Made by a program: the position numbers and the translations under genes. The notes under the pieces were generated by a model, which worked only from the letters and a program-made list of their open reading frames with translations, was not told where the DNA came from and ran no database searches. Below, piece by piece: positions 15,737 through 42,965 of a stretch of DNA of 53,175 bases. This DNA is from Gemmatimonadota bacterium (GTDB lineage: Bacteria; Gemmatimonadota; Gemmatimonadetes; Gemmatimonadales; Gemmatimonadaceae). Numbering within the stretch: position 1 is the first letter of the stretch; each line of letters opens with the position of its first letter. The stretch is from positions 1 through 53,175 of the forward strand of contig JAJPIM010000023.1 of the NCBI GenBank assembly GCA_021324775.1, written 5' to 3'.

Positions 15737-16882
15737 CTAGCGTGAGAAATTCAGCGGAAACTCGTGCACACTGGACGCTGCTGCGGGCGGAAACCGCCAC
15801 GCGTTGACCTTGGTTCGGATGCAGTTTTCCACATCCGCCCATCCCTCGCCGGACCACGAGTGCTGCACGATCCCGGCATAGCCGACCGATCCATCCTGCG
15901 CGAGCGCCACACGCACCGTGGCGGTACCCGTCAGCCCGGGATGCGAGCGCAGTCCGTACTCCGTGTAGCAGTACAAGAGTTCCGGCTGCCACTGGTGCAC
16001 CAGGTTCTGCACTGCGACATCGTCCACTCCGGCCGGGGCTGGGCTGGTGGGCACTGGGACGCTCGTGGCCGAGACGACAACCGGCTTCATTCCGCGCGTC
16101 GTGGCGTGTGCACTCGCCGCTGTCACCCCGCGCGCCGCCGCCGCCGACTGGACCGGACTGGCCGCTGACGCAACCGCGGACGGCGATTGGGCAGGCTGCT
16201 GTGCCGCGGTCTGGGCGGCCACCGCCGCGGCCTGCGCTTCAGCTTGCGCCTGGGCTACCGCCGCCACATGGAGGGTCCGGGCCATGCGCGCGGCGTCATG
16301 CAGCGCGGCCGCCGCGGCCTGGGCACCGTCGGCAAATAACATTGCCGTCTGCCCGTCCTGGCGGTTGGCGCCGATGTTCACCCGGAGGGCCATCCCATCC
16401 TGATCTGACATTGTTTCAAGGATGACGTCGCCGGCGCCGAGTATCATGTGCGCGGTGTCGGGGGTTGCTGCTGGTGATGACGGTGACACCGCAGATCCGG
16501 AACCCGAGAGAACGACCAGCCGTTGCGCGAACTCCGCCCACCGGTCGATGTCATCGGCGCTCACCGCGATCGGATGCGCAAATGGATTGCGGAACCCCGG
16601 CGACGCGAAAACCAGCACACTGTCGGCCGCCGTCGCGCGGAACCACACGACCGTCGTGCCCCAGTGCAGCATCGCCGTTTCCTTCTGGCGGGCCGGGGCG
16701 GACGCGGCGCTGCCGGACGCTCCCTGAGCGTACGCCATCGGTGCTGCGAGTGGCACCGCCACCACGGCAGCGAAAGCAGTAACAACGAAACCAACGAAAA
16801 CACCAACCAAAGAGGCCGCTACCTGCGCGATCGCTGATCCGGTTGCGAACGCGTCGTCGAGCGGCCGAAGAAAACCACGCAT
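15737..16882 (-). CDS. AgmX/PglI C-terminal domain (TonB-like) protein
   Basis: Envelope protein of 381 residues. A hydrophobic N-terminal segment (VGVFVGFVVTAFAAVVAVPLA) anchors or exports it, and a central domain carries an Ala/Gln-rich helix (VAQAQAEAQAAAVAAQTAAQQ). The C-terminal 95 residues match the AgmX/PglI TonB-like fold: LVHQWQPELLYCYTEYGL, GLTGTATVRVALAQDGSVGYAGI, VENCIRTKVNAWRFPPA. The paired Cys (YCY and ENC) are the usual conserved pair. Family members are linked to gliding motility and envelope energy transduction in Myxococcota. The start is supported by GGGGG about 7 bases upstream. Confidence 0.82.
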   Translation of the reverse strand: MRGFLRPLDDAFATGSAIAQVAASLVGVFVGFVVTAFAAVVAVPLAAPMAYAQGASGSAASAPARQKETAMLHWGTTVVWFRATAADSVLVFASPGFRNPFAHPIAVSADDIDRWAEFAQRLVVLSGSGSAVSPSSPAATPDTAHMILGAGDVILETMSDQDGMALRVNIGANRQDGQTAMLFADGAQAAAAALHDAARMARTLHVAAVAQAQAEAQAAAVAAQTAAQQPAQSPSAVASAASPVQSAAAARGVTAASAHATTRGMKPVVVSATSVPVPTSPAPAGVDDVAVQNLVHQWQPELLYCYTEYGLRSHPGLTGTATVRVALAQDGSVGYAGIVQHSWSGEGWADVENCIRTKVNAWRFPPAAASSVHEFPLNFSR

Positions 16883-17194
16883 GCAGGATGCCCCCTAAGG
16901 TCCGTTCGGCAGCCGGACTGGCGTGGCGGACCGGACAAGCCGGTCCACGGTAGCCTCCAGAGCTTTGCGTCGCCGGCTTTCGCCGGGTATGCCGTTCTCG
17001 CGGGCGCCCGGGAGTGGGCACCCCCGCCGCGCGAAGCGGCGGTCTATCGGTCACGCCTGCTCAGGCGCGTCTACGAATGTAGGAATGCCAGGATGACGAG
17101 CAATGGACAATACGCCCGAGCGCAGCCTCGGATTCTGCGGCTATGCCAGACGTGGACAACCCGCCTTTGCTGACGCGGCTGCGCCGGGTCCGTT
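16883..17194. other. Intergenic region with two short hairpins
   Basis: The spacer of about 310 bases contains GGACCGG/CCGGTCC (16928-16934 with 16940-16946, loop ACAAG) and CCGCCGC/GCGGCGG (17024-17030 with 17036-17042, loop GCGAA). The second lies downstream of the DUF3857 gene on the minus strand and could act as a terminator, but it lacks a T-tract. I see no gene. Confidence 0.5.
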
Positions 17195-22267: not shown

Positions 22268-24034
22268 TCATCCACTCGTAGTGTGCCGCCCTGGATCAAA
22301 GACCTCGAGCTGTATTTTCGAAACACGATCTGCCGTCTCGCTTCGTAGCTCACTCTCGATCCCGAGCAAACCTACCCGCTCCAGCATTTGCAACGTGAAT
22401 GCAGACGCAGTCACACAGGTCAACGTATCACCCACGAGGTCAAATGCAGCGAGGTCTTCAACATAAACTGCATGAGTGGATGGATATCGCGCTGCTGCTT
22501 TAGGCCGCACCACACTCCAGAGCTCCGCTGCATCCGGCGAAATGGCTGCCGTCCGCGCGGCATCAATGATTGGAACCCGCTGAGCTGGAGGTGCAAGCGC
22601 GATATCGTCAAGATTGCGGGGCCTCAGCACAATGGGCCCAGCAGTCTGCTGGTTCTCGTGAACTCGATACCCAGATCCTGTTACTCCCCTACGCTGATGG
22701 GCGAGCCACTGTTGATACCTGACATCACCAGAAAAGTTAGCGTCCCCATCGACAAGCTTCAGCAGGTAAGCAGACCAACTGCGTTTTACACGAGTATGAT
22801 CGATATCGCGTACATAAAGCAGGTATTGCAAGGCCTCGTACACGCGGCTTGGCCGTTCGGCAAGCATTCTATCTGCGCTTTCACGTGTTACTCCAAAGTG
22901 CCGTAACAGCATCCGCTGGATGCGCAGCTCGCGGGCATCAAGTGCGCCAACACCACGAAGCAGCGCAGCCATCCGTAATTGCAAGCCTGGCATAAACGTG
23001 AACACATACCGTCCTCGGCTTGCCTTCTCCCATTCTGCCTGCGCAAGAACCTCACAACTCACCAGCTCACTCGAAGCTTCCTCGACAGATGCTCGGACAG
23101 CAGCGGGCCGACGTGAGACACCAGCCATGCCACACCGTAGCCGAAGATCACTCAAGGTCATAGACCACGGAGCAGTGACGCCACGAGCGGATTCGCCCGC
23201 AAAGAGCTGATACAAGCGTTTTGCGATCGGACTCCGAAGCGCCACGTAACGCTCAACGTTAATCCAAGCAGCCCAGCCACCAGCGAGCTCCCGTAACCAG
23301 ACAGGATTGATCTGTAAATGCGCAATCCAATCCTCACCTTCTTCCCGCCGGTCATACGTCCGCTTAACTGCATATTCGAGGATATGTAGTACACCGATCG
23401 TGGCAGTACCTTTTCTCGCCTGCGGAACAGGCAGACCATCGGGTTCAACTGGACGAACTGCTGGTCTTACTCTCTCGCCTGATAAAATCTCGCCAGGATC
23501 GTTGCCAGCACCGTCGCTTAGTAAAGCCAACCCAATATTTGACGCCTGCTGGTTCACATGCATCTCGATCCTGACATGTGATAACCGATGTAGCGCCTCC
23601 CGAATACGGCGGCTGGTATCACCATTCATAGGCCGCCCCATTGCACGCGCAATCATCCCTACAGTCGGATCCGGAAACTCTCCATTCGAGAATAGCCGTG
23701 CACGATCTCCAGCAGGCATCTCATCGGCAATTTTGAACAAAGCAAAGAAAATGTCCCCATCAGCCCCGTACGGCAGGCCATGCTGATCATCTCCCTTCAC
23801 AACTACCCGATACTGTGATCCATCAGCACGCCGACCATTCAGCTCTGCGCTATATGCAAATCCAGGTAACCGACCAGTCACCTGATCAATACGCTCAAGC
23901 TTCTGGACAGCTCGGATAATCGGTAAATCAACCAGCTGCAGTGCTACCGGGTAAACCCCACCTCCTCTCCCACTACCCAGTAACAACTCCTCCCACGGAG
24001 GATCCGATATCTGCACCAATCCATTTCCTGCCAT
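22268..24034 (-). CDS. Plasmid-type replication initiator (RepA/RPA family) with DnaA domain I-like C-terminus
   Basis: Initiator-like protein of about 588 residues. The family pattern is seen in LPYGADGDIFFALFKIADEM, PTVGMIARAMGRPMNGDTSRRIREALHRLSHVRIEM (first winged helix), WLRELAGGWAAWINVERYVALRSPIAKRLYQLFAGES and the second winged-helix region WSMTLSDLRLRCGMAG to GRYVFTFMPG. A helical domain follows (LLRHFGVTRESADRMLAERP). The last 80 residues (AELWSVVRP, GDTLTCVTASAFTLQML, IQLEVFDPG) resemble DnaA domain I, which contacts DnaB and loader proteins. The ATG at 24034 is used; a GTG at 24043 is also possible. Codon use is less GC-rich than in flanking genes. Transcription runs away from the AT-rich segment at 24044-24732, as expected for an initiator beside its origin. 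Confidence 0.82.
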   Translation of the reverse strand: MAGNGLVQISDPPWEELLLGSGRGGGVYPVALQLVDLPIIRAVQKLERIDQVTGRLPGFAYSAELNGRRADGSQYRVVVKGDDQHGLPYGADGDIFFALFKIADEMPAGDRARLFSNGEFPDPTVGMIARAMGRPMNGDTSRRIREALHRLSHVRIEMHVNQQASNIGLALLSDGAGNDPGEILSGERVRPAVRPVEPDGLPVPQARKGTATIGVLHILEYAVKRTYDRREEGEDWIAHLQINPVWLRELAGGWAAWINVERYVALRSPIAKRLYQLFAGESARGVTAPWSMTLSDLRLRCGMAGVSRRPAAVRASVEEASSELVSCEVLAQAEWEKASRGRYVFTFMPGLQLRMAALLRGVGALDARELRIQRMLLRHFGVTRESADRMLAERPSRVYEALQYLLYVRDIDHTRVKRSWSAYLLKLVDGDANFSGDVRYQQWLAHQRRGVTGSGYRVHENQQTAGPIVLRPRNLDDIALAPPAQRVPIIDAARTAAISPDAAELWSVVRPKAAARYPSTHAVYVEDLAAFDLVGDTLTCVTASAFTLQMLERVGLLGIESELRSETADRVSKIQLEVFDPGRHTTSG

Positions 24035-24043
24035 AGGGCACAC

Positions 24044-24732
24044 AACTTATCCACGAATCGCCATATCTGTTAGGGTAACCAGCTCAATCTGACCTCAAGC
24101 CGGGCCTTGTTCGCTCCTACCACCTACTGTCTCCACGTCCATCTATCACCAAGCACAGTTGCATTTCCTGCTTTCTCTCGAGCGGCTGGTTGTTGTTTTA
24201 ACCTTCCTTAAATCAGACTAACGAACAGCACTGCTCGGCTAATAGGCTGGTCATCTATCTAATCGCTGGCGGTGATGATCGTTGTGGAGAGCTGAGTCGT
24301 GGTATTTAGTGGTTTGCAGGTCAGGTGTATGTCTGCCAGACCTCAGATCGTCGGTATGTGTAGTTTCAGGCTTTGAGGCAAGTAGTTAGCTAGTACGCCA
24401 ACTGTCATAGCTTGGTACGAGAGGTGGGGTATCAGGCCAGGTAAGGGGTACTAGGGGGGTGTGTTCAAGCAAATGTTGGAGTCTGGTTGGCGTTGTTCGG
24501 CTATGGGGGTAATCGCAGTTTTGTTAATTAACCAGCTGTCAATCCGTGCCATGTATATATGTCTAAGTCGTTGTAGTATAAGAGCTTGCTTGGCTATATA
24601 TAGGTCCGCAGCTGGGTAGGTGTGCTATCATTTGTGGCTTAGCGGGACCTTCAATTGTGCTGGTATGACGATTGGCGTACCTTGGACGGGGCACTTTAGA
24701 TCAGTCTATTGGCGCACAACCTATGAGGTCTG
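24044..24732. other. Candidate replication origin region
   Basis: A 0.69-kb non-coding segment between divergent rep and double-winged-helix genes, the least GC-rich stretch of the window. Plus-strand composition flips inside it. My hand count gives C 23/G 7 in 24121-24180 and C 6/G 27 in 24421-24480, with near balance at 24181-24240. The segment TGTTGTTTTAACCTTCC to AAATCAGACTAAC (about 24190-24222) is a candidate unwinding element. GTTAATTAAC (24522-24531) and a TATATATA run (24594-24601) are other AT-rich spots. I could not find convincing iterons by eye. Confidence 0.65.
24047..24055 (+). promoter_or_regulatory. DnaA-box-like 9-mer at the rep 5' end
   Basis: TTATCCACG differs from the consensus DnaA box TTATCCACA only at the last base. 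It lies just upstream of the rep start codon, where bound DnaA could both load at the origin and repress rep. Only one good match was found in the segment, so chance occurrence cannot be excluded. Confidence 0.5.
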
Positions 24733-25653
24733 GTGAACATTCCTCTGTCTAACAGTGGGTCCTACCGTAGACCGATAGCTGATGTTGACACTCTGCCATT
24801 CGAGGTCTCTGATGACCTTGTTGTGCAATCAGTAGCTGCGACTTTTGCACGGGCTCCGCTTAGGCCTGATGAATTACGTGATATTCGGCTGATTGCATTT
24901 GTACTTGCTATATCCGCTCAGCTATCGGCTAAGCAGGTAGCTACAGACCGCTTTGAAGCATCTCGTATCGTGGTAGCTGATGATCGATTGAGGTCAGTAA
25001 GTGGTCTTTCTTTGGCGAGAGTACAGCGATCACTATCACGGTTGGTCGAAGCACGGGTACTCGAGCAGGTTGCCGATGACCCGCCGAGTTGGTTCAGATT
25101 GGCAGCTAGGGTGATGCAGCCACCAGGATCCGGTCAGTATATGAGCTGGATCGGGGTTGTTCCGAAAATCGCTGGCCGTGTCCCCGCAATATTGCTTCTC
25201 CGAGCGATCCTGGATCTGGTAACAGTTCCATGGGATTGGACTCGGTTGACTTACGAGCAGTTAGCTACTCGTGCTTCCTATTCTCTTGGGATGGCGCAGC
25301 GTGGTGTGATGCAGTTGCTCGAGTCGGGCATACTGGAGCGGGCGGATCACTTAGGCCGAGGTCATGATTATCGGCTGAGCTCCTGGGCACTAGGTCGCGG
25401 CCCAATTCCAGAGCCCGTGCAACTACCCGCTGAAGCAGCGCGCCAAAGCGCTCAACCTGAACGAATCCAAGCAAGTGAACCCACCAGCCAATCCATGAAT
25501 GCAAACGCCAATGCGATGAGCACAATGGCAGTGGAGATTGGTGGGTTAGTACTCCGTGTACCTGTCGGCACTCAAATTCGTATGACTCTCGGTGCAGATG
25601 GCGAACCGCAATACGAAGTCGGATCTGAACTCAAGATCATTCGACGCGGGTAG
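24733..25653 (+). CDS. Tandem winged-helix protein, possible replication accessory or regulator
   Basis: A 306-residue protein I do not recognise as a named family. Two winged-helix-like segments are visible: LSLARVQRSLSRLVEARVLEQVADDPPSWFRL (about 95-127) and LTYEQLATRASYSLGMAQRGVMQLLESGILERADHLGRGHDYRL (about 175-218). The tail has a Gln/Ser/Asn-rich linker and a small beta segment (GGLVLRVPVGTQIRMTL). Two winged helices are the classic build of plasmid Rep proteins. Divergence from rep across the origin-like segment suggests a role in initiation or its control. The GTG start is supported by GAGG 4 bases upstream. Codon use is AT-leaning, like rep. Confidence 0.7.
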   Translation: MNIPLSNSGSYRRPIADVDTLPFEVSDDLVVQSVAATFARAPLRPDELRDIRLIAFVLAISAQLSAKQVATDRFEASRIVVADDRLRSVSGLSLARVQRSLSRLVEARVLEQVADDPPSWFRLAARVMQPPGSGQYMSWIGVVPKIAGRVPAILLLRAILDLVTVPWDWTRLTYEQLATRASYSLGMAQRGVMQLLESGILERADHLGRGHDYRLSSWALGRGPIPEPVQLPAEAARQSAQPERIQASEPTSQSMNANANAMSTMAVEIGGLVLRVPVGTQIRMTLGADGEPQYEVGSELKIIRRG

Positions 25654-25701
25654 GCATGATGTTTCTAGTCTGCTGACCTTTCACCGGCCAAACACACGTT
25701 G

Positions 25702-25947
25702 CTACCGCCTAGACTGACTCCGTACAGTATTGCGAACCCGAAGTATGACGGAGAGGGTGAAGATCAGATCCAGTCCGAGTGGCAGGAGTAACTCTTCTCG
25801 TCTATGGTTGCTCGTACTATGTGATCCGAGCGTTACAACGATCGTGATCCATGCAATAGTTACTGCTGTATAGACTCCATCATCGACGAAGAGCGCGAGA
25901 ACTGCCTGCAGTGCGGATCTGATACCGCGTGTGATGGTGGTAGTCAT
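25702..25947 (-). CDS. Small two-helix membrane protein coupled to the COG4280-like gene
   Basis: An 81-residue protein with two hydrophobic segments (YTAVTIAWITIVVTLG and LLLPLGLDLIFTLSVILRV) separated by a charged loop (SHSTSNHRREE). Its ATG overlaps the TGA of the upstream gene in the sequence ATGA (25944-25947), so the two are almost certainly translated together. No family is recognised. It could be a small subunit or partner of the upstream polytopic protein. Confidence 0.68.
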   Translation of the reverse strand: MTTTITRGIRSALQAVLALFVDDGVYTAVTIAWITIVVTLGSHSTSNHRREELLLPLGLDLIFTLSVILRVRNTVRSQSRR

Positions 25948-26690
25948 GGCTTTGCCCGGGTTAGAAGTCCTCTCACTGTCGCGGCAATTGCCAGAGAAGA
26001 GGTGAGGTACAGAGCTGCAAGCCACACGAGTGAGAGGTCGTCACCAGGCCATGTATACCCAGCCCCTTCGCCGATCCAGAATGTCCCGAAGGAACTGAGC
26101 AATACTCCAACTGCCATTTTGAGTGTGTTTTCAGGCACACGAGTCAACGGTGTGCGGAGTAGTATTCCGGCTGTAAGAACCACTGTGCCGGCTGCTGTGG
26201 CGCCGATTACGGCGGGAATGAGCATATGTCCTGTCGTGCCCGTAGCAATGATGATGAACACTACTTCGATACCTTCGACCAGTACTCCGTTGAATGCTGT
26301 AACCGCAGCTATTGTATCAATACCCGACGCGCGGGGGGCGCGGTTACGTAATGCTGTCGTTTGAGACGTGTAAGCAACTGACTCATCGTGAAGACTGATA
26401 GTTCCGGCTGCACGGAGTGTGGATTTCTGCAACCACCGCATGCCGAAGAGCAGTAGCAACACACCCATTGCGAGGTGTAAATCAGCGAGTGGGAATTGGT
26501 CTAGCAGGGTACCGCCTGCTACTACAATGAGTCCCAGTGCTCCGAGCCCGGCAGCTACGCCGACGAGCGCTCCTCGCCACCCTCGTATTGTCCCTGCTGC
26601 CAGCACGATCGTGAACGCCTCGACGAATTCCACCAGTGAGGCGAGGAATGCCGTAATGATCGTTGGACCCGCGTGCATCCAGTTAATCAT
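25944..26690 (-). CDS. COG4280-like polytopic membrane protein (possible cation transporter)
   Basis: Membrane protein of 248 residues with about seven hydrophobic helices in two related halves. Each half carries an acidic motif inside a helix: SLVEFVEAFTIVLAAGTIRGW near the N-terminus and LVEGIEVVFIIIATGTTGH in the middle. Paired E-x-x-E motifs in an inverted or tandem repeat recall GDT1/UPF0016 (ExGDK) and FTR1 (REGLE) cation permeases. Metal transport is therefore plausible, but it is inferred from motif logic only. It is the first gene of a two-gene operon inside the lower-GC island. Confidence 0.7.
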   Translation of the reverse strand: MINWMHAGPTIITAFLASLVEFVEAFTIVLAAGTIRGWRGALVGVAAGLGALGLIVVAGGTLLDQFPLADLHLAMGVLLLLFGMRWLQKSTLRAAGTISLHDESVAYTSQTTALRNRAPRASGIDTIAAVTAFNGVLVEGIEVVFIIIATGTTGHMLIPAVIGATAAGTVVLTAGILLRTPLTRVPENTLKMAVGVLLSSFGTFWIGEGAGYTWPGDDLSLVWLAALYLTSSLAIAATVRGLLTRAKP

Positions 26691-30928: not shown

Positions 30929-30944
30929 TGCGAAGTTTGATTTC

Positions 30945-31010
30945 GGGTGATGGAGCTCACCCAAACTGCCGCCCTGGTCATGGCTGAGGGTACGGCTGAT
31001 GGCTCCTACG
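30945..31010 (+). promoter_or_regulatory. Fluoride riboswitch (crcB RNA motif)
   Basis: GGGTGATGGAGCTCACCC then AAACTGCC, and later GGCTGATGGCTCCTAC, reproduce the aptamer core of the known Thermotoga-type fluoride riboswitch: a GGxGATGG stem, AACTGCC pseudoknot strand and GCTGATGxCTCCTAC closing strand. It lies about 120 bases before crcB. The 3' strand (GCTCC, 31002-31006) pairs either with GGAGC of the aptamer (30952-30956) or with GGGAGC of the following terminator. That is a transcription-attenuation switch in which fluoride should favour read-through. Confidence 0.92.
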
Positions 31011-31034
31011 CGAGGCTTGGCGTGGGAGCTTTTT
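31002..31034 (+). terminator. Riboswitch-controlled intrinsic terminator
   Basis: GCTCCTACGC (31002-31011) pairs with GCGTGGGAGC (31020-31029), loop GAGGCTTG, followed by TTTTT (31030-31034). Its left arm overlaps the 3' strand of the fluoride aptamer, so aptamer and terminator are mutually exclusive. Confidence 0.9.
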
Positions 31035-31065
31035 GTTGCCCACGACCGGTATTGATCTAGTCTGT

Positions 31066-31125
31066 TCGCTGGCCAGACAGCGACTTCATCGGAGCTCGCC
31101 GGCCAGATGGCGACTTCCTCGGAGG
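31066..31125 (+). repeat. Tandem 30-bp hairpin repeats in the crcB leader
   Basis: Two 30-base units (31066-31095 and 31096-31125) match at 25 of 30 positions. Each folds as a small hairpin: TCGCTG/CAGCGA in unit 1 and TCGCCG/TGGCGA in unit 2 around the same loop GCCAGA. The stem differences keep pairing (T-A replaced by C-G, G-C replaced by G-T). The second unit ends in GGAGG, the crcB ribosome-binding site. Confidence 0.75.
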
Positions 31126-31132
31126 GATCAGG

Positions 31133-31528
31133 GTGAAAATGTTCTGGGCCGTAGCGATTGGTGCTGCAGCCGGTGGCGTATGCCGGTATTACCTCGGCGC
31201 GTTCGTGCAGCAGCATACGGGAGCCGCGTTCCCGTATGGGACGCTCCTGATCAACATCACCGGGAGCCTGGTCCTCGGGTTCCTGCTCCGCTATGCGCTC
31301 ACGACGCAGACGTGGAGCATCGAGTTGCGTGCCCTGCTGACGACGGGTTTCTGCGGCGGGTATACGACGTTCTCGACGTACAGCTATGAAACGGCAATGC
31401 TTCTGGAAGATGGCGAATATCAGCGGGCGGCCGTTTACGCGGTGGGCAGTGTCGTTGCGGCGCTCGTGTTCACGTTTGTGGGTTTCATCCTCGCGCGCGA
31501 ACTGATTGCGTGGCGCGAGCATTTCTGA
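31133..31528 (+). CDS. crcB: Fluoride channel CrcB/Fluc
   Basis: Four-helix fluoride exporter of 131 residues that works as a dual-topology dimer in the inner membrane. Seen are AIGAAAGGVCRYYLGAFV, FPYGTLLINITGSLVLGFLL with the conserved Asn, and TGFCGGYTTFSTYSYE with the Phe-box and Thr-Phe-Ser track. The GTG start has GGAGG 7 bases upstream; an ATG two codons later is possible. The gene is preceded by a fluoride riboswitch and followed by a DUF190 gene, a known pairing. A single full-length gene implies a homodimeric channel. Confidence 0.96.
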   Translation: MKMFWAVAIGAAAGGVCRYYLGAFVQQHTGAAFPYGTLLINITGSLVLGFLLRYALTTQTWSIELRALLTTGFCGGYTTFSTYSYETAMLLEDGEYQRAAVYAVGSVVAALVFTFVGFILARELIAWREHF

Positions 31529-31588
31529 CCTTGTCGTATTCGGATACGTAGGCGCTTCGGCGCTGTCAGACTGATCCCGGGAGGAGTC

Positions 31589-31966
31589 ATGCACGGTTTC
31601 ACGGGTGAACGCGTCCTGATGCGTATCCACATCGGGGAGCGCGATAAGTGGAAGGGCAAGCCGCTGTACCGCGCCATCACAGAGTTGTTGCGTGCGAAAC
31701 ACTACGCAGGCTGTACGGTGGTTCGTGCCATCATGGGCTTTGGCGCCAGCTCCAAGGTGCATTCCGACCGGATCGAGGTGCTGTCACTCGACTTGCCGAT
31801 CGTGATCGAATGCGTGGAGACAGAGGAGAAGATCGAGGCGATCCTTCCCGAGCTTGATCAGATGATCGGAGGCGGTCTCACCACCCTCGAACGCGTTCGG
31901 GTCATCATGTACCGCCCCGGTGTCCCACATGAGGAGCGAGCTAGCACGGGGCCGAGGACCAGCTAG
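31589..31966 (+). CDS. DUF190 (PII-like) family protein
   Basis: A 125-residue protein of the DUF190 family, which adopts a PII/GlnB-like trimeric fold. It shows GERVLMRIHIGERDKWKGKPLYRAITELLRAKHYAGCTVVRAIMGFGASS, then SLDLPIVIECVETEEKIEAILPELDQMIGGGLTTLERVRVI. It is often encoded beside crcB and probably senses a nucleotide or modulates fluoride export, though its role is not proven. GGGAGGAG precedes the ATG. Its stop codon overlaps the convergent flavoenzyme stop in a shared CTAG. Confidence 0.9.
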   Translation: MHGFTGERVLMRIHIGERDKWKGKPLYRAITELLRAKHYAGCTVVRAIMGFGASSKVHSDRIEVLSLDLPIVIECVETEEKIEAILPELDQMIGGGLTTLERVRVIMYRPGVPHEERASTGPRTS

Positions 31967-40135: not shown

Positions 40136-40178
40136 TTCAACGGTTGAAGAGAGATGGAGTATCGTTTCAACGGTTGAA
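40136..40178 (+). promoter_or_regulatory. Two parS-like centromere sites
   Basis: TTCAACGGTTGAA occurs at 40136-40148 and again at 40166-40178, exactly 30 bases apart, each inside a longer match CGTTTCAACGGTTGAAGAGA. It is a 6-1-6 palindrome. Its half-site TTTCA/TGAA resembles the general parS consensus. The sites lie 386-428 bases upstream of parA. Confidence 0.75.
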
Positions 40179-40217
40179 GAGATGGAGACGGATTCGTCCT
40201 AAGGGTGCAGCCAAGAA

Positions 40218-40311
40218 GTGGGGCCGCAGCTCATAGTGGGGTCGCTGCTAAGAGAGTGGGGTGGTAGCTGAGGGTGGGGTGGCAGCTGAGACAGTGGGGT
40301 GGTAGCTGAGA
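40218..40311 (+). repeat. Five degenerate 18-20 bp tandem repeats
   Basis: Units of the form GTGGGGTGGTAGCTGAGA repeat about five times between the parS-like sites and the module A repeat. Drift between units is small. The array sits inside the partition locus leader. Confidence 0.75.
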
Positions 40312-40314
40312 GTG

Positions 40315-40454
40315 GGGGCCGTTCTCGAACGGCCCCCGCTGCGTTTTGCTGCGACATCCTTCGCCGCATCTGGATTGGTTGGGGAGGGGCCAGGGTGGCG
40401 GCCGAGGGTTGCGGTGGTGCGGCCGGTGACGGTGTGCCAGTCGCGACCGACCGC
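40315..40454 (+). repeat. Composite dispersed repeat copy (modules A and degenerate B)
   Basis: GGGGCCGTTCTCGAACGGCCCC at the left end is a perfect hairpin form of module A. It is followed by CGCTGCGTTTTGCTGCG, a CATCTGGATTGG linker, and a degenerate module B (CCAGTCGCGACCGACC) near 40437-40452. Order and spacing match the copies at 1.89 and 49.87 kb. Confidence 0.8.
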
Positions 40455-40484
40455 GCACGAAACGCCACCGTCAGCTCCACGTGT

Positions 40485-40497
40485 TTCAACCGTTGAA
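40485..40497 (+). promoter_or_regulatory. parS-like site 3, upstream of parA
   Basis: TTCAACCGTTGAA is the reverse complement of the other two parS-like sites. It lies 67 bases before the parA start, where ParB binding could also repress the operon. Confidence 0.75.
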
Positions 40498-40563: not shown

Positions 40564-41427
40564 TTGGCGCGATGGATCGCGATCGGCATGCAGAAGGGCG
40601 GGGTAGGGAAGACGACGCTCGCTACGAATCTTGCCGCGGCTTTGGCTGGCGGGCTCGGTCTTCGTGTCCTGGTGCTCGATTTCGATGGCCAGCGCAATGC
40701 TACGGTCGGCCTTCTCGGGATCGCGCCGGAGCAGGGGCCCACGATCGAGTCGGTGTTGCGTGAAGCGGTTCCGCTCTCCGACGCCATGATTCATACCGGG
40801 TTTGCCCCCCGCGCGGAGCTCTATGTGGTCCCCGGAACGCGCGGGTTGACGAGTTGGGAACCCGAGATCCGCGACTGGAATAGCGCCGCGCTGCGTTTTC
40901 GCGAGGTGTTGCGGAGTGGGCTGCGCTGGGATGATGGCGCGAACGAGCACGCGTTTGATGTGGTTCTCATCGACACGCCACCCGCCGGGGGTCTCTGGTT
41001 GCAAACGGCGCTGACGATCGCAGATGGATACATCGTGGTCGCCCAGTGTGAGCGATATAGCGCAGAAGGCGTGCAGATGATTCAGGAGACGGCGCGGCGC
41101 ACTCGCGAGGACGCGCGCCTCAACCCGGATCTCGTGCTCGACGGGTTCGTCGTCAATGCGATGAAGGCGCGCAGGGCGAATCCGCACGCGTTTCTGGAGG
41201 CGTATCGCGCGGCGTTTCCGGATGCGTTTCTCGAGCCGCCGATTCCCGATTTCTCCGGTATCAGCGATGCGGCGACGAATGGAGTGCCGGTCGAATTCGC
41301 TGCACGTTGGAGCAAGGAAGCCAGGATTTTCCGGCAGCTCGCGGACGCGCTCAACGATCGTCTCGCGCTCGGTGGTGTGAATACGACTGACCATGTGCCG
41401 GCCGCTGTGCCGGGAGGGAAGCTCTGA
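40564..41427 (+). CDS. parA: ParA family partition ATPase
   Basis: Deviant Walker-A ATPase of 287 residues that positions replicon copies on the nucleoid. The P-loop is KGGVGKTT (11-18). The A' region reads VLDFDGQRNAT instead of the usual DxDPQG, and the Walker B is VVLIDTPPAGG. There is no N-terminal helix-turn-helix, so it is not a P1/type Ia ParA. The TTG start has GAGG 5 bases upstream. The stop overlaps the parB start as TGATG, so the two are coupled. Three palindromic parS-like sites lie just upstream. Confidence 0.93.
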   Translation: MARWIAIGMQKGGVGKTTLATNLAAALAGGLGLRVLVLDFDGQRNATVGLLGIAPEQGPTIESVLREAVPLSDAMIHTGFAPRAELYVVPGTRGLTSWEPEIRDWNSAALRFREVLRSGLRWDDGANEHAFDVVLIDTPPAGGLWLQTALTIADGYIVVAQCERYSAEGVQMIQETARRTREDARLNPDLVLDGFVVNAMKARRANPHAFLEAYRAAFPDAFLEPPIPDFSGISDAATNGVPVEFAARWSKEARIFRQLADALNDRLALGGVNTTDHVPAAVPGGKL

Positions 41428-42965
41428 TGGCCAAGCCCAAGTCACGCGTGCAGAGTGCCGCGATCGCGGGGATGCTGGGTGTCGCTCCCTCGGCATCCGT
41501 TCCGGCCGATGAATCTGGCGGTCGCGGCGCGGGACGCGGGGAAGGGGGCCACCCGGTGCGCGATCACTACGAGTCCGGGGTGGCACGGGCCGACAACGCC
41601 TTGGTGCTCGACGCGCGCCGAGTGGTGCGGCGAGGGCGGTATGTGCGGCCGTTTACCGACGATCACCGGTTCCAGGAGCTCGTCTCTGCGATCGAGGAAG
41701 CGGGCCGCACGATTCATGTCCCGATCCTCGTGCGCGTCGAAGGCCCGCCTGGTGAGGTCGAGTACGTTCTGGTGGATGGGACTCATCGCCTCGAGGCCGC
41801 GCTCAGGCTTTCCATCCCGGTGCCCGCGATCAACCTTGGCCGCATCTCGCCTGACCGCGCGCTCGCCATCCAGGCCATGGCCAACGAAGTTCGCGCGTCG
41901 ATGCACGTCATCGACCAAGTCTCCTATGTCATCGCGCTCCTGGGGCAGGGGCTCACCCGCGATTCGGTGCAGCGCACGACGGGGTTCAGCGCGGGCCGTG
42001 TCTCCGAGCTCGTGGGCATCGGGATGCTGCTCGCCGGGCTGAACGAAGGAGAGCGCGAACGTGCCCGGCAGTCGGAACGAGTCACGCACCGCGCGCTCCG
42101 CGCCCTCAAGGGAGCGACCACGGATGCGGAGGCATTCCGGCGCGGGGTCATGATGCTCGCGGCCTCGCCTGCCGGGGGTGACTATTTAGAAGCCATTAGC
42201 GACGAAATAGATGTGACGCAATCCATAGCGCATCCGGCGAGGGACGACATTGGCACGAGCGCTCAGAAAGTAGCAGATGGTTACCAATTAACCGACCGGC
42301 CGCCGGCATCCGTCCGCCGCCGCGGCCGCACGCCCACGGAGCCTGGTGCCGTCACGTTCGTGCCCGGCCGCAACGCGCGAGGCACGTCGGTCACCTATCG
42401 TGTTGCCTGGCGCGCGCGCGCCGTTCGGCAGGACCCGCAGGCCTTTCTGGAGCACGTCCGCGCTCTCATCCAGGTCATCGCCGCCGACGCGACCGCCGAC
42501 TATGCCGCGGCTGTTGCGCGCGCCTCCACACGCGGTCGCCGGCGGGGCAGGGAGGTCATGCCTGCCCCGACCGATTCATGGCGCGAGACGATCGCTCGTG
42601 AAGAAGCGGAGCTCGCCGCCCGTGTGGCCGCCCACGCCCGTGCGGCTGATCTTCCCGCAAGTCATCACGCGGGCCGCCAGCGTGATGAGGCCATCCCCGA
42701 TCATCAGAATCCGATGCCGGTACCGCCCAGCCAGCGCCGCCCCGGGGATTCCGCTCCTTCCATCGACCCACGGCTTCTTGCCGGACTGTCGATCCCAATG
42801 CTGGCCGAGCGTATGAAACGCCGGCCGGCGGAATTCGGCGAGCTGGAAACGCACGTGAGTGATGTCGAGCGGCAAGCCGAAGACGCGCGGCGCCGAGTGC
42901 GCGAACTTGTCGACGCGGAAGAAGCGGGGCGGCGGCCGCCGCCGCCCCTGCCCAGAACGCCGTGA
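41427..42965 (+). CDS. parB: ParB family centromere-binding protein
   Basis: ParB/Spo0J-type protein of 512 residues. The N-domain has LDARRVVRRGRYVRPFTDDH, EEAGRTIHVPILVRV and DGTHRLEAALRL (117-128), the counterpart of the CTPase GERRxRA box, with altered residues. A helix-turn-helix follows (LTRDSVQRTTGFSAGRVSELVGIGMLLAG, about 176-204). The long C-terminal half is unusual: TYRVAWRARAVRQDPQAFLEHVRALI, Arg/Pro-rich linkers and a terminal coiled coil (ELETHVSDVERQAEDARRRVREL) that probably dimerises. Length and sequence suggest a plasmid or chromid type. It ends 24 bases before a convergent gene. Confidence 0.9.
   Translation: MAKPKSRVQSAAIAGMLGVAPSASVPADESGGRGAGRGEGGHPVRDHYESGVARADNALVLDARRVVRRGRYVRPFTDDHRFQELVSAIEEAGRTIHVPILVRVEGPPGEVEYVLVDGTHRLEAALRLSIPVPAINLGRISPDRALAIQAMANEVRASMHVIDQVSYVIALLGQGLTRDSVQRTTGFSAGRVSELVGIGMLLAGLNEGERERARQSERVTHRALRALKGATTDAEAFRRGVMMLAASPAGGDYLEAISDEIDVTQSIAHPARDDIGTSAQKVADGYQLTDRPPASVRRRGRTPTEPGAVTFVPGRNARGTSVTYRVAWRARAVRQDPQAFLEHVRALIQVIAADATADYAAAVARASTRGRRRGREVMPAPTDSWRETIAREEAELAARVAAHARAADLPASHHAGRQRDEAIPDHQNPMPVPPSQRRPGDSAPSIDPRLLAGLSIPMLAERMKRRPAEFGELETHVSDVERQAEDARRRVRELVDAEEAGRRPPPPLPRTP

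Follow-up and report, generated by a model that had tools for sequence, protein, structure and literature searches.

Does the non-coding spacer between a plasmid-type replication initiator gene (rep) and a divergently transcribed gene for a winged-helix-type protein (wh) act as a replication origin in a Gemmatimonadaceae bacterium, and, if so, on what kind of replicon? The locus lies on contig C43 (JAJPIM010000023.1; 214,643 bp), within positions 1-53,175; this stretch, the whole of the DNA originally presented, is referred to below as the window. The source genome (G000; GCA_021324775.1) comprises 4.19 Mb in 46 contigs. It was compared with those of two congeners (G002 and G001), Gemmatirosa kalamazoonensis (G018), two further genomes (G052 and G075) and a distant control (G017). 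The closest relative of the rep locus was found on contig JANWJD010000207.1 (L044), which is filed under a Chloroflexi metagenome-assembled genome yet displays the gene order rep-EamA-GAF-aminotransferase at 76-92 % identity and is probably a mis-binned Gemmatimonadota contig. As detailed below, we assign a probability of about 0.7 to the reading that the spacer serves as a plasmid-type origin and that its replicon is most likely a chromid of this bacterium.

Strand composition around the spacer and across related replicons

The principal features of the locus are as follows:

22268-24043, minus strand: rep, RPA-family replication initiator, 591 aa; start GTG at 24043 or ATG at 24034
24044-24732: non-coding spacer, putative origin, 689 bp; longest open stretch 57 codons, GC 0.489
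24190-24219: AT-rich segment (70 % AT) at a recurrent position, probable DNA-unwinding element
24217-24228, plus strand: conserved element ACTAACGAACAG beside the switch; 12/12 identical in L044, AACTAACG in G002
24222-24266: strand-composition switch point from skew scans (range over scales; 24236 at 500 bp)
24733-25653, plus strand: wh (P0002), transcribed away from rep; 306-aa winged-helix-type partner protein

An earlier note on this DNA had described an AT-rich, non-coding spacer flanked by rep and a divergent winged-helix gene, within which the plus strand flips from C-rich to G-rich. This description is borne out (GC 0.489 in the spacer, 0.654 in the contig), and the base counts given for it are exact: 7 G and 23 C in 24121-24180, and 27 G and 6 C in 24421-24480. 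GC skew is -0.39 on the rep side of the spacer (24044-24180) and +0.31 in the remainder (24241-24732). Located at about 24236, the switch is the strongest within the window at every scale of at least 150 bp and ranks first on the whole of C43 from 500 bp to 10 kb. Five contigs of the genome, together about 680 kb, were also scanned at 250-5000 bp, and no C-to-G switch in them was stronger (z = 6.1 for the one at 24236, at 500 bp). At the 60-bp scale alone it is unremarkable, and equally extreme 60-bp windows occur elsewhere in the window, which would fit chance variation in the composition of an AT-rich spacer. Such variation is hardly credible as an explanation, given the top rank of the switch at all larger scales and the presence of the same flip in the homologous 747-bp spacer of G002, despite sequence divergence that leaves little to align. 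A promoter scan of the spacer (24044-24732) found nothing.

The array of sites described in the next section and rep could both be real while the skew switch results from divergent transcription of rep and wh, through exposure of the non-template strands, and not from replication. Both genes are indeed transcribed outward, and the wh side of the spacer shows an excess of G and T, the pattern that transcription-coupled deamination should leave. On their coding strands, rep and wh have positive third-position skew (+0.32 and +0.18, respectively; +0.27 and +0.36 in G002), opposite to the typical C43 coding strand: third positions between 50 and 180 kb are C-rich on average, with a skew of about -0.17 in plus-strand genes and, read on the plus strand, about 0 in minus-strand genes. 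Furthermore, the OFeT and EamA genes, which are transcribed toward the spacer, carry outward-positive skew in both G000 and G002, each weakly. The position of the switch at the AT-rich segment also argues against transcription as the cause, as do the large related replicons, on which skew minima, seen over tens of kilobases, fall at rep (see below), so that we consider this explanation quite unlikely. In G002, skew is outward-positive along the entire wh side for 30 kb, and the rep side is flat.

Third-position GC, which averages 0.80 (sd 0.05) on the contig, dips around the spacer, to 0.74 in the aminotransferase gene, 0.69 in GAF, 0.68 in EamA and 0.49 in rep, and on the other side to 0.46 in wh, 0.53 in OFeT and 0.68 in bla. 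In the region 22268-26690, which has the spacer at the centre of this trough, rep also shows higher synonymous divergence from L044 than its neighbours do.

At the scale of the contig the picture is more complex. Cumulative GC skew over the whole replicon had been suggested as a check on the origin, and on C43 it places the minimum at 177-185 kb, not at the spacer; the local switch at 24236 is nonetheless present. To the right of the spacer, skew stays positive as far as about 35 kb, is negative over 35-177 kb (on average in either gene orientation) and turns positive again at 177-185 kb, the largest switch at the 20-kb scale being located at 184.9 kb. Within C43 177000-185000 (L030), plus- and minus-strand genes alike change the sign of their third-position skew, and only ordinary genes were found; this region is possibly a rearrangement boundary. 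In G001, the genes that correspond to C43 185-188 kb and 3-15 kb sit close together; rearrangement has thus indeed occurred in the vicinity of these points and may explain the skew mosaic of C43. Accordingly, the claim that the spacer is a bidirectional origin holds in part: an origin is backed by the site array, the AT-rich segment, the skew minima of related replicons and a parABS-like locus, and the right-arm skew is not persistent. Because its sign is negative at 35-177 kb, we infer bidirectional replication from the spacer rather than regard it as shown.

In the same genome, the region C37 190000-238000 (L196, L197 and L043) has no clear skew flip at dnaA or at the chromosomal parB and is mostly positive. 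Strong skew switches were also observed on contig C19, near a short RPA-domain paralogue; as an origin candidate these were rejected, since they coincide with a simple-repeat tract and with a lysine/acid-rich ORF and not with an obvious origin.

Both megaplasmids of Gemmatirosa kalamazoonensis are circular and present at about chromosomal copy number (PMC3974934). Half of each element (1.106 Mb and 1.041 Mb) was sampled for skew, with complete reading of the 60 kb around rep; cumulative skew reaches its minimum at 1,026,863 and 648,644, and the rep homologues are at 1,024,446 and 651,065, respectively. For G052:C4 (284 kb), the complete contig was read, and the minimum after detrending is at 191,560, with rep at 194,135. 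The rep homologue is accordingly found within about 2.6 kb of the minimum on three large Gemmatimonadaceae replicons; on G052:C3 there is no local skew minimum within 20 kb.

A four-site array and an AT-rich segment upstream of rep

The regions upstream of rep homologues were compared at nine loci: the window, G002, G001, Gemmatirosa C3 and C4, G052 C4, C3 and C1, and G075. The search was motif-free, looked for four 17-mers arranged as two inward-facing pairs, and was scored against 60 dinucleotide shuffles. In the window, it delineated the following sites:

24331-24347, plus strand: site 1, GTCTGCCAGACCTCAGA, putative Rep-binding site of the four-site array
24393-24409, plus strand: site 2, GTACGCCAACTGTCATA, 15/17 identical to inverted site 3; conserved in G002 and G001
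24664-24680, minus strand: site 3, GTACGCCAATCGTCATA, inverted counterpart of site 2
24722-24738, minus strand: site 4, GTTCACCAGACCTCATA, overlapping the start of wh; same position in G002 (-753)

The array scored above all 60 shuffles in each of the nine homologous loci, whereas at the distant control G017 the score did not exceed those of the shuffles. Everywhere the layout is that of two inward-facing pairs of related 17-bp sites separated by ~270 bp, at similar distances from rep (outer sites at -530 to -780, inner inverted sites at -330 to -410). The geometry is constant while the site sequences are replicon-specific; when up to three mismatches were allowed, only sites 2 and 3 matched in the 214 kb of C43. 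The motif GTACGCCAA...TCA is kept in the same order in three congeners. Within the window itself, the array score is reached by 10 of the 1228 tiled windows and so is not unique, and the weight of the array comes from its recurrence across loci and from the conserved motif. In G001, the array remains next to wh and rep is found on another contig, which indicates that the module was split or rearranged there; the two parts (G001:C106 and G001:C31) each have GC-rich codons.

The AT-rich segment is similarly recurrent. In eight of the nine loci, an AT-rich 30-mer located 130-200 bp before rep falls within the top 1.4 % of upstream positions, even in the GC-rich Gemmatirosa and G052 replicons. The common layout of the nine loci reads divergent winged-helix gene, four-site spacer, AT-rich segment and rep. 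The middle of the array is at about 24536, and the skew switch lies 17 bp beyond the AT-rich segment, beside which the element ACTAACGAACAG is located; a switch at the probable unwinding segment and not at mid-array is what would be expected if forks start there.

The earlier note had pointed to a DnaA-box-like site beside the flip and had suggested aligning relatives for conserved iterons. The former, TTATCCACG (24047-24055), is at chance level, one such site being expected per 800 bp in shuffles, and L044 has TTATCCAGT instead; we found no credible DnaA box or box cluster in the spacer, where the one single-mismatch site equals the one expected by chance. No long tandem iteron array was detected in the spacer; the conserved feature, the four-site array, emerged only from the comparison of the nine loci.

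These properties set the locus apart from known systems to different extents. Like the iteron-type theta plasmid origins of F/RepE, RK2/TrfA, R6K/pi and P1/RepA (reviewed in PMC4980987), it has an initiator gene beside the origin, repeated initiator-type sites and an adjacent AT-rich segment. It differs from them in having two sites on each side, as inward-facing pairs 270 bp apart and not as a tandem array, in the lack of clear DnaA boxes (common in that class, not universal), in an RPA initiator with a tail resembling DnaA domain I, and in a divergent wh gene in every locus read. Unlike a DnaA-type chromosomal oriC, the spacer has no DnaA box cluster, and the dnaA gene of the genome is located on a separate contig, C37. 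The closest counterparts are the Gemmatirosa megaplasmids (CP007129 and CP007130), which share the homologous rep, the divergent wh, the array geometry, the AT-rich segment and the skew minimum at rep, and differ in the site sequences and in that parA-parB directly adjoin the module. The Gemmatirosa genome paper offers no origin description for them (PMC3974934), and, to our knowledge, the combination of four initiator-binding-like sites with an AT-rich melting zone, as it appears from sequence comparison, has not been described before.

The initiator and its winged-helix partner

Rep matches the profile PF10134 with an E-value of 1e-9 (38.8 bits; Pfam gathering cut-off 27) and is homologous to proteins encoded on the Gemmatirosa megaplasmids (35-36 % identity). 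In the comparison with L044, dN/dS of rep is about 0.05, with synonymous sites near saturation, and, judging from these substitutions, rep is under strong purifying selection. Fourfold-degenerate sites differ from L044 at 63 % in rep and at 40-45 % in its three neighbours, which indicates that change in the module is also more rapid. Synonymous divergence from G002 is near saturation in all genes, which leaves the L044 comparison as the only informative one.

The carboxy-terminal part of Rep deserves separate mention:

22289-22537, minus strand: C-terminal Rep module resembling DnaA domain I, about residues 503-585

When this tail (the last ~85 residues) was compared with DnaA domain I of the order using hhalign, a probability of 92 % (E 6e-7) was obtained; a more homogeneous, genus-only alignment gave only 22 %. 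A PDB profile search seeded with the tail had DnaA (10xk_A) as its top match (E 0.004), and a Pfam scan of Rep yielded no match to PF11638 (DnaA domain I). All four genus-level Rep sequences have a phenylalanine at the aligned residue, which we take to be the position of Phe46 in E. coli DnaA numbering. Phe46 of E. coli DnaA is a helicase contact, as quoted in PMC4980987.

The product of wh gave a sub-threshold HTH match only in Pfam. A wh homologue diverges from rep in all five Gemmatirosa and G052 loci read, and a profile comparison of the wh proteins of the window group with those of the Gemmatirosa/G052 group yielded an E-value of 2e-16; these two observations indicate that wh is a dedicated partner and not a chance neighbour. 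Predicted structures of Rep and its partner are of low confidence (mean pLDDT 34 and 39, respectively).

Two other genes with related domains were noticed in the genome. A short RPA-domain protein of ~300 aa (G000:C19:20080-20775, L158) has matches in 131 of the 179 family genomes, usually once, with its gene and hisG about 31 kb apart in G023 and G167; this protein is possibly a chromosomal paralogue with a role of its own. In addition, a DnaA ATPase domain recurs in a second protein, encoded at G000:C26:6548-7033 (L023; 407 aa ORF), which has no match to DnaA domain I or domain IV.

Partition, core genes and the identity of the replicon

A parABS-like locus is located 16 kb from the spacer:

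40136-40497 (at 40136, 40166 and 40485): three parS-like palindromes TTCAACSGTTGAA upstream of parA
40588-41427, plus strand: parA, partition ATPase, 279 aa; AAA_31 E 1.5e-32, PDB ParA 8ray E 1e-24
41427-42965, plus strand: parB-like gene for a centromere-binding protein, 512 aa; TIGR00180 ParB E 4e-7, below the curated cut-off

A Pfam search of the parB-like protein gave no match, and a PF02195 search had retrieved only the chromosomal ParB, as if C43 carried no partition genes; this view was overturned by parA, the divergent parB and the replicon-specific palindromes. The palindrome occurs three times on C43 and not at all in 464 kb of other contigs. In G002, two copies precede parA and ParA is 92 % identical. 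The main chromosome has a canonical parS beside its own ParB, on C37. On the related Gemmatirosa and G052 replicons, parA-parB are found beside rep. Between the palindromes lies a G-rich tandem repeat (window 40203-40317; three copies of a 38-bp unit), near the second strongest skew switch of C43 (39.9 kb). Elsewhere, the window contains a c-di-GMP-I riboswitch (16905-17003, minus strand), just upstream of a gene of unknown function (15737-16882), and, at 30937-31966 on the plus strand, a fluoride riboswitch with crcB (31139-31528) and then a DUF190 gene (31589-31966) after it.

Contig C43 also encodes histidine biosynthesis genes of the his operon and argB/argD, and both hisG and the aminotransferase gene on the rep side are main-chromosomal in other genera. 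Chromids, as characterized in a passage quoted in PMC12342839, combine plasmid-type replication and partition with core genes that are chromosomal elsewhere, and their GC content is usually within 1 % of that of the chromosome. The RPA-family rep, together with parA, parB and the palindromes, provides plasmid-type replication and partition, and with the core genes C43 fits this definition. In composition it is borderline, with 65.4 % GC compared to 66.7-68.2 % in the other sampled contigs (1.2-2.8 points lower). Unlike an established chromid, it is only probably a separate molecule. The contig (214,643 bp) is open, and no overlap between its two ends was found. In the literature examined, we found no chromid described in Gemmatimonadota.

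The same genes allow a different reading, namely that integration or fusion has placed a plasmid-type origin in the main chromosome, where it remains active as a second origin in addition to the dnaA origin. The main-chromosomal location of hisG and the aminotransferase gene in every complete relative would fit such a history, as would the occurrence of the rep-array-wh module on the chromosome-like, 2.99-Mb contig C1 of G052, and the short positive zone at 24-35 kb within a long negative arm resembles a local fork meeting an oncoming one. There is also a precedent: in the single-chromosome Vibrio cholerae strain NSCV1, both origins are active (PMC6284228), and the NSCV strains, whose one chromosome carries two origins, would serve as the model for a C43 that belongs to the main chromosome. 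In those strains, oriC and P1-like origins were joined by strain-specific fusions, whereas here the module is conserved between species. The strong purifying selection on rep and, in particular, the complete partition locus with its replicon-specific palindromes, conserved in both G000 and G002, argue against integration; the latter is hard to explain without a separate molecule. On balance, we regard integration as unlikely.

A still less favourable case can be made for an inactive remnant, that is, an integrated plasmid origin which no longer fires and whose rep was retained as a regulator. The absence of a large-scale skew minimum at the spacer of C43 and the separation of rep from the array in G001 are compatible with it; the conserved array, AT-rich segment and partition locus, along with a dN/dS of about 0.05, make it improbable.

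If the spacer is indeed the origin of a chromid, replication could proceed as follows. Rep, produced from the adjoining gene, would bind the four 17-bp sites, as two inward-facing pairs about 270 bp apart, and the resulting complex would open the AT-rich segment at 24190-24219, about 110 bp from the array in the direction of rep. Recruitment of the DnaB helicase may be aided by the DnaA-domain-I-like tail of Rep, and wh, as a dedicated partner bound to the same spacer, would probably act as a regulator or co-initiator. Forks would then exit the opened segment in both directions, with the plus strand as the lagging (C-rich) strand to the left and as the leading (G-rich) strand to the right. Partition of the replicon would be the task of the locus at 40-43 kb (ParA, ParB and three palindromes). 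In more general terms, the locus may represent an undescribed class of origins of Gemmatimonadaceae plasmids and probable chromids, in which an RPA initiator with its tail and a wh partner load two helicases from paired sites at an unwinding segment that flanks them, and which in this genus drives either a chromid with core operons or a second chromosomal origin; this broader proposal is tentative, and we would put it at slightly worse than even odds.

If correct, these assignments would give the widespread soil phylum Gemmatimonadota a testable origin for its large secondary replicons, and a possible base for replicating vectors in these bacteria. The fusion with a DnaA-domain-I-like module would show a plasmid Rep borrowing the chromosomal route of helicase recruitment, and the inward-facing site pairs would offer a natural case for studying how an initiator loads two opposite helicases.
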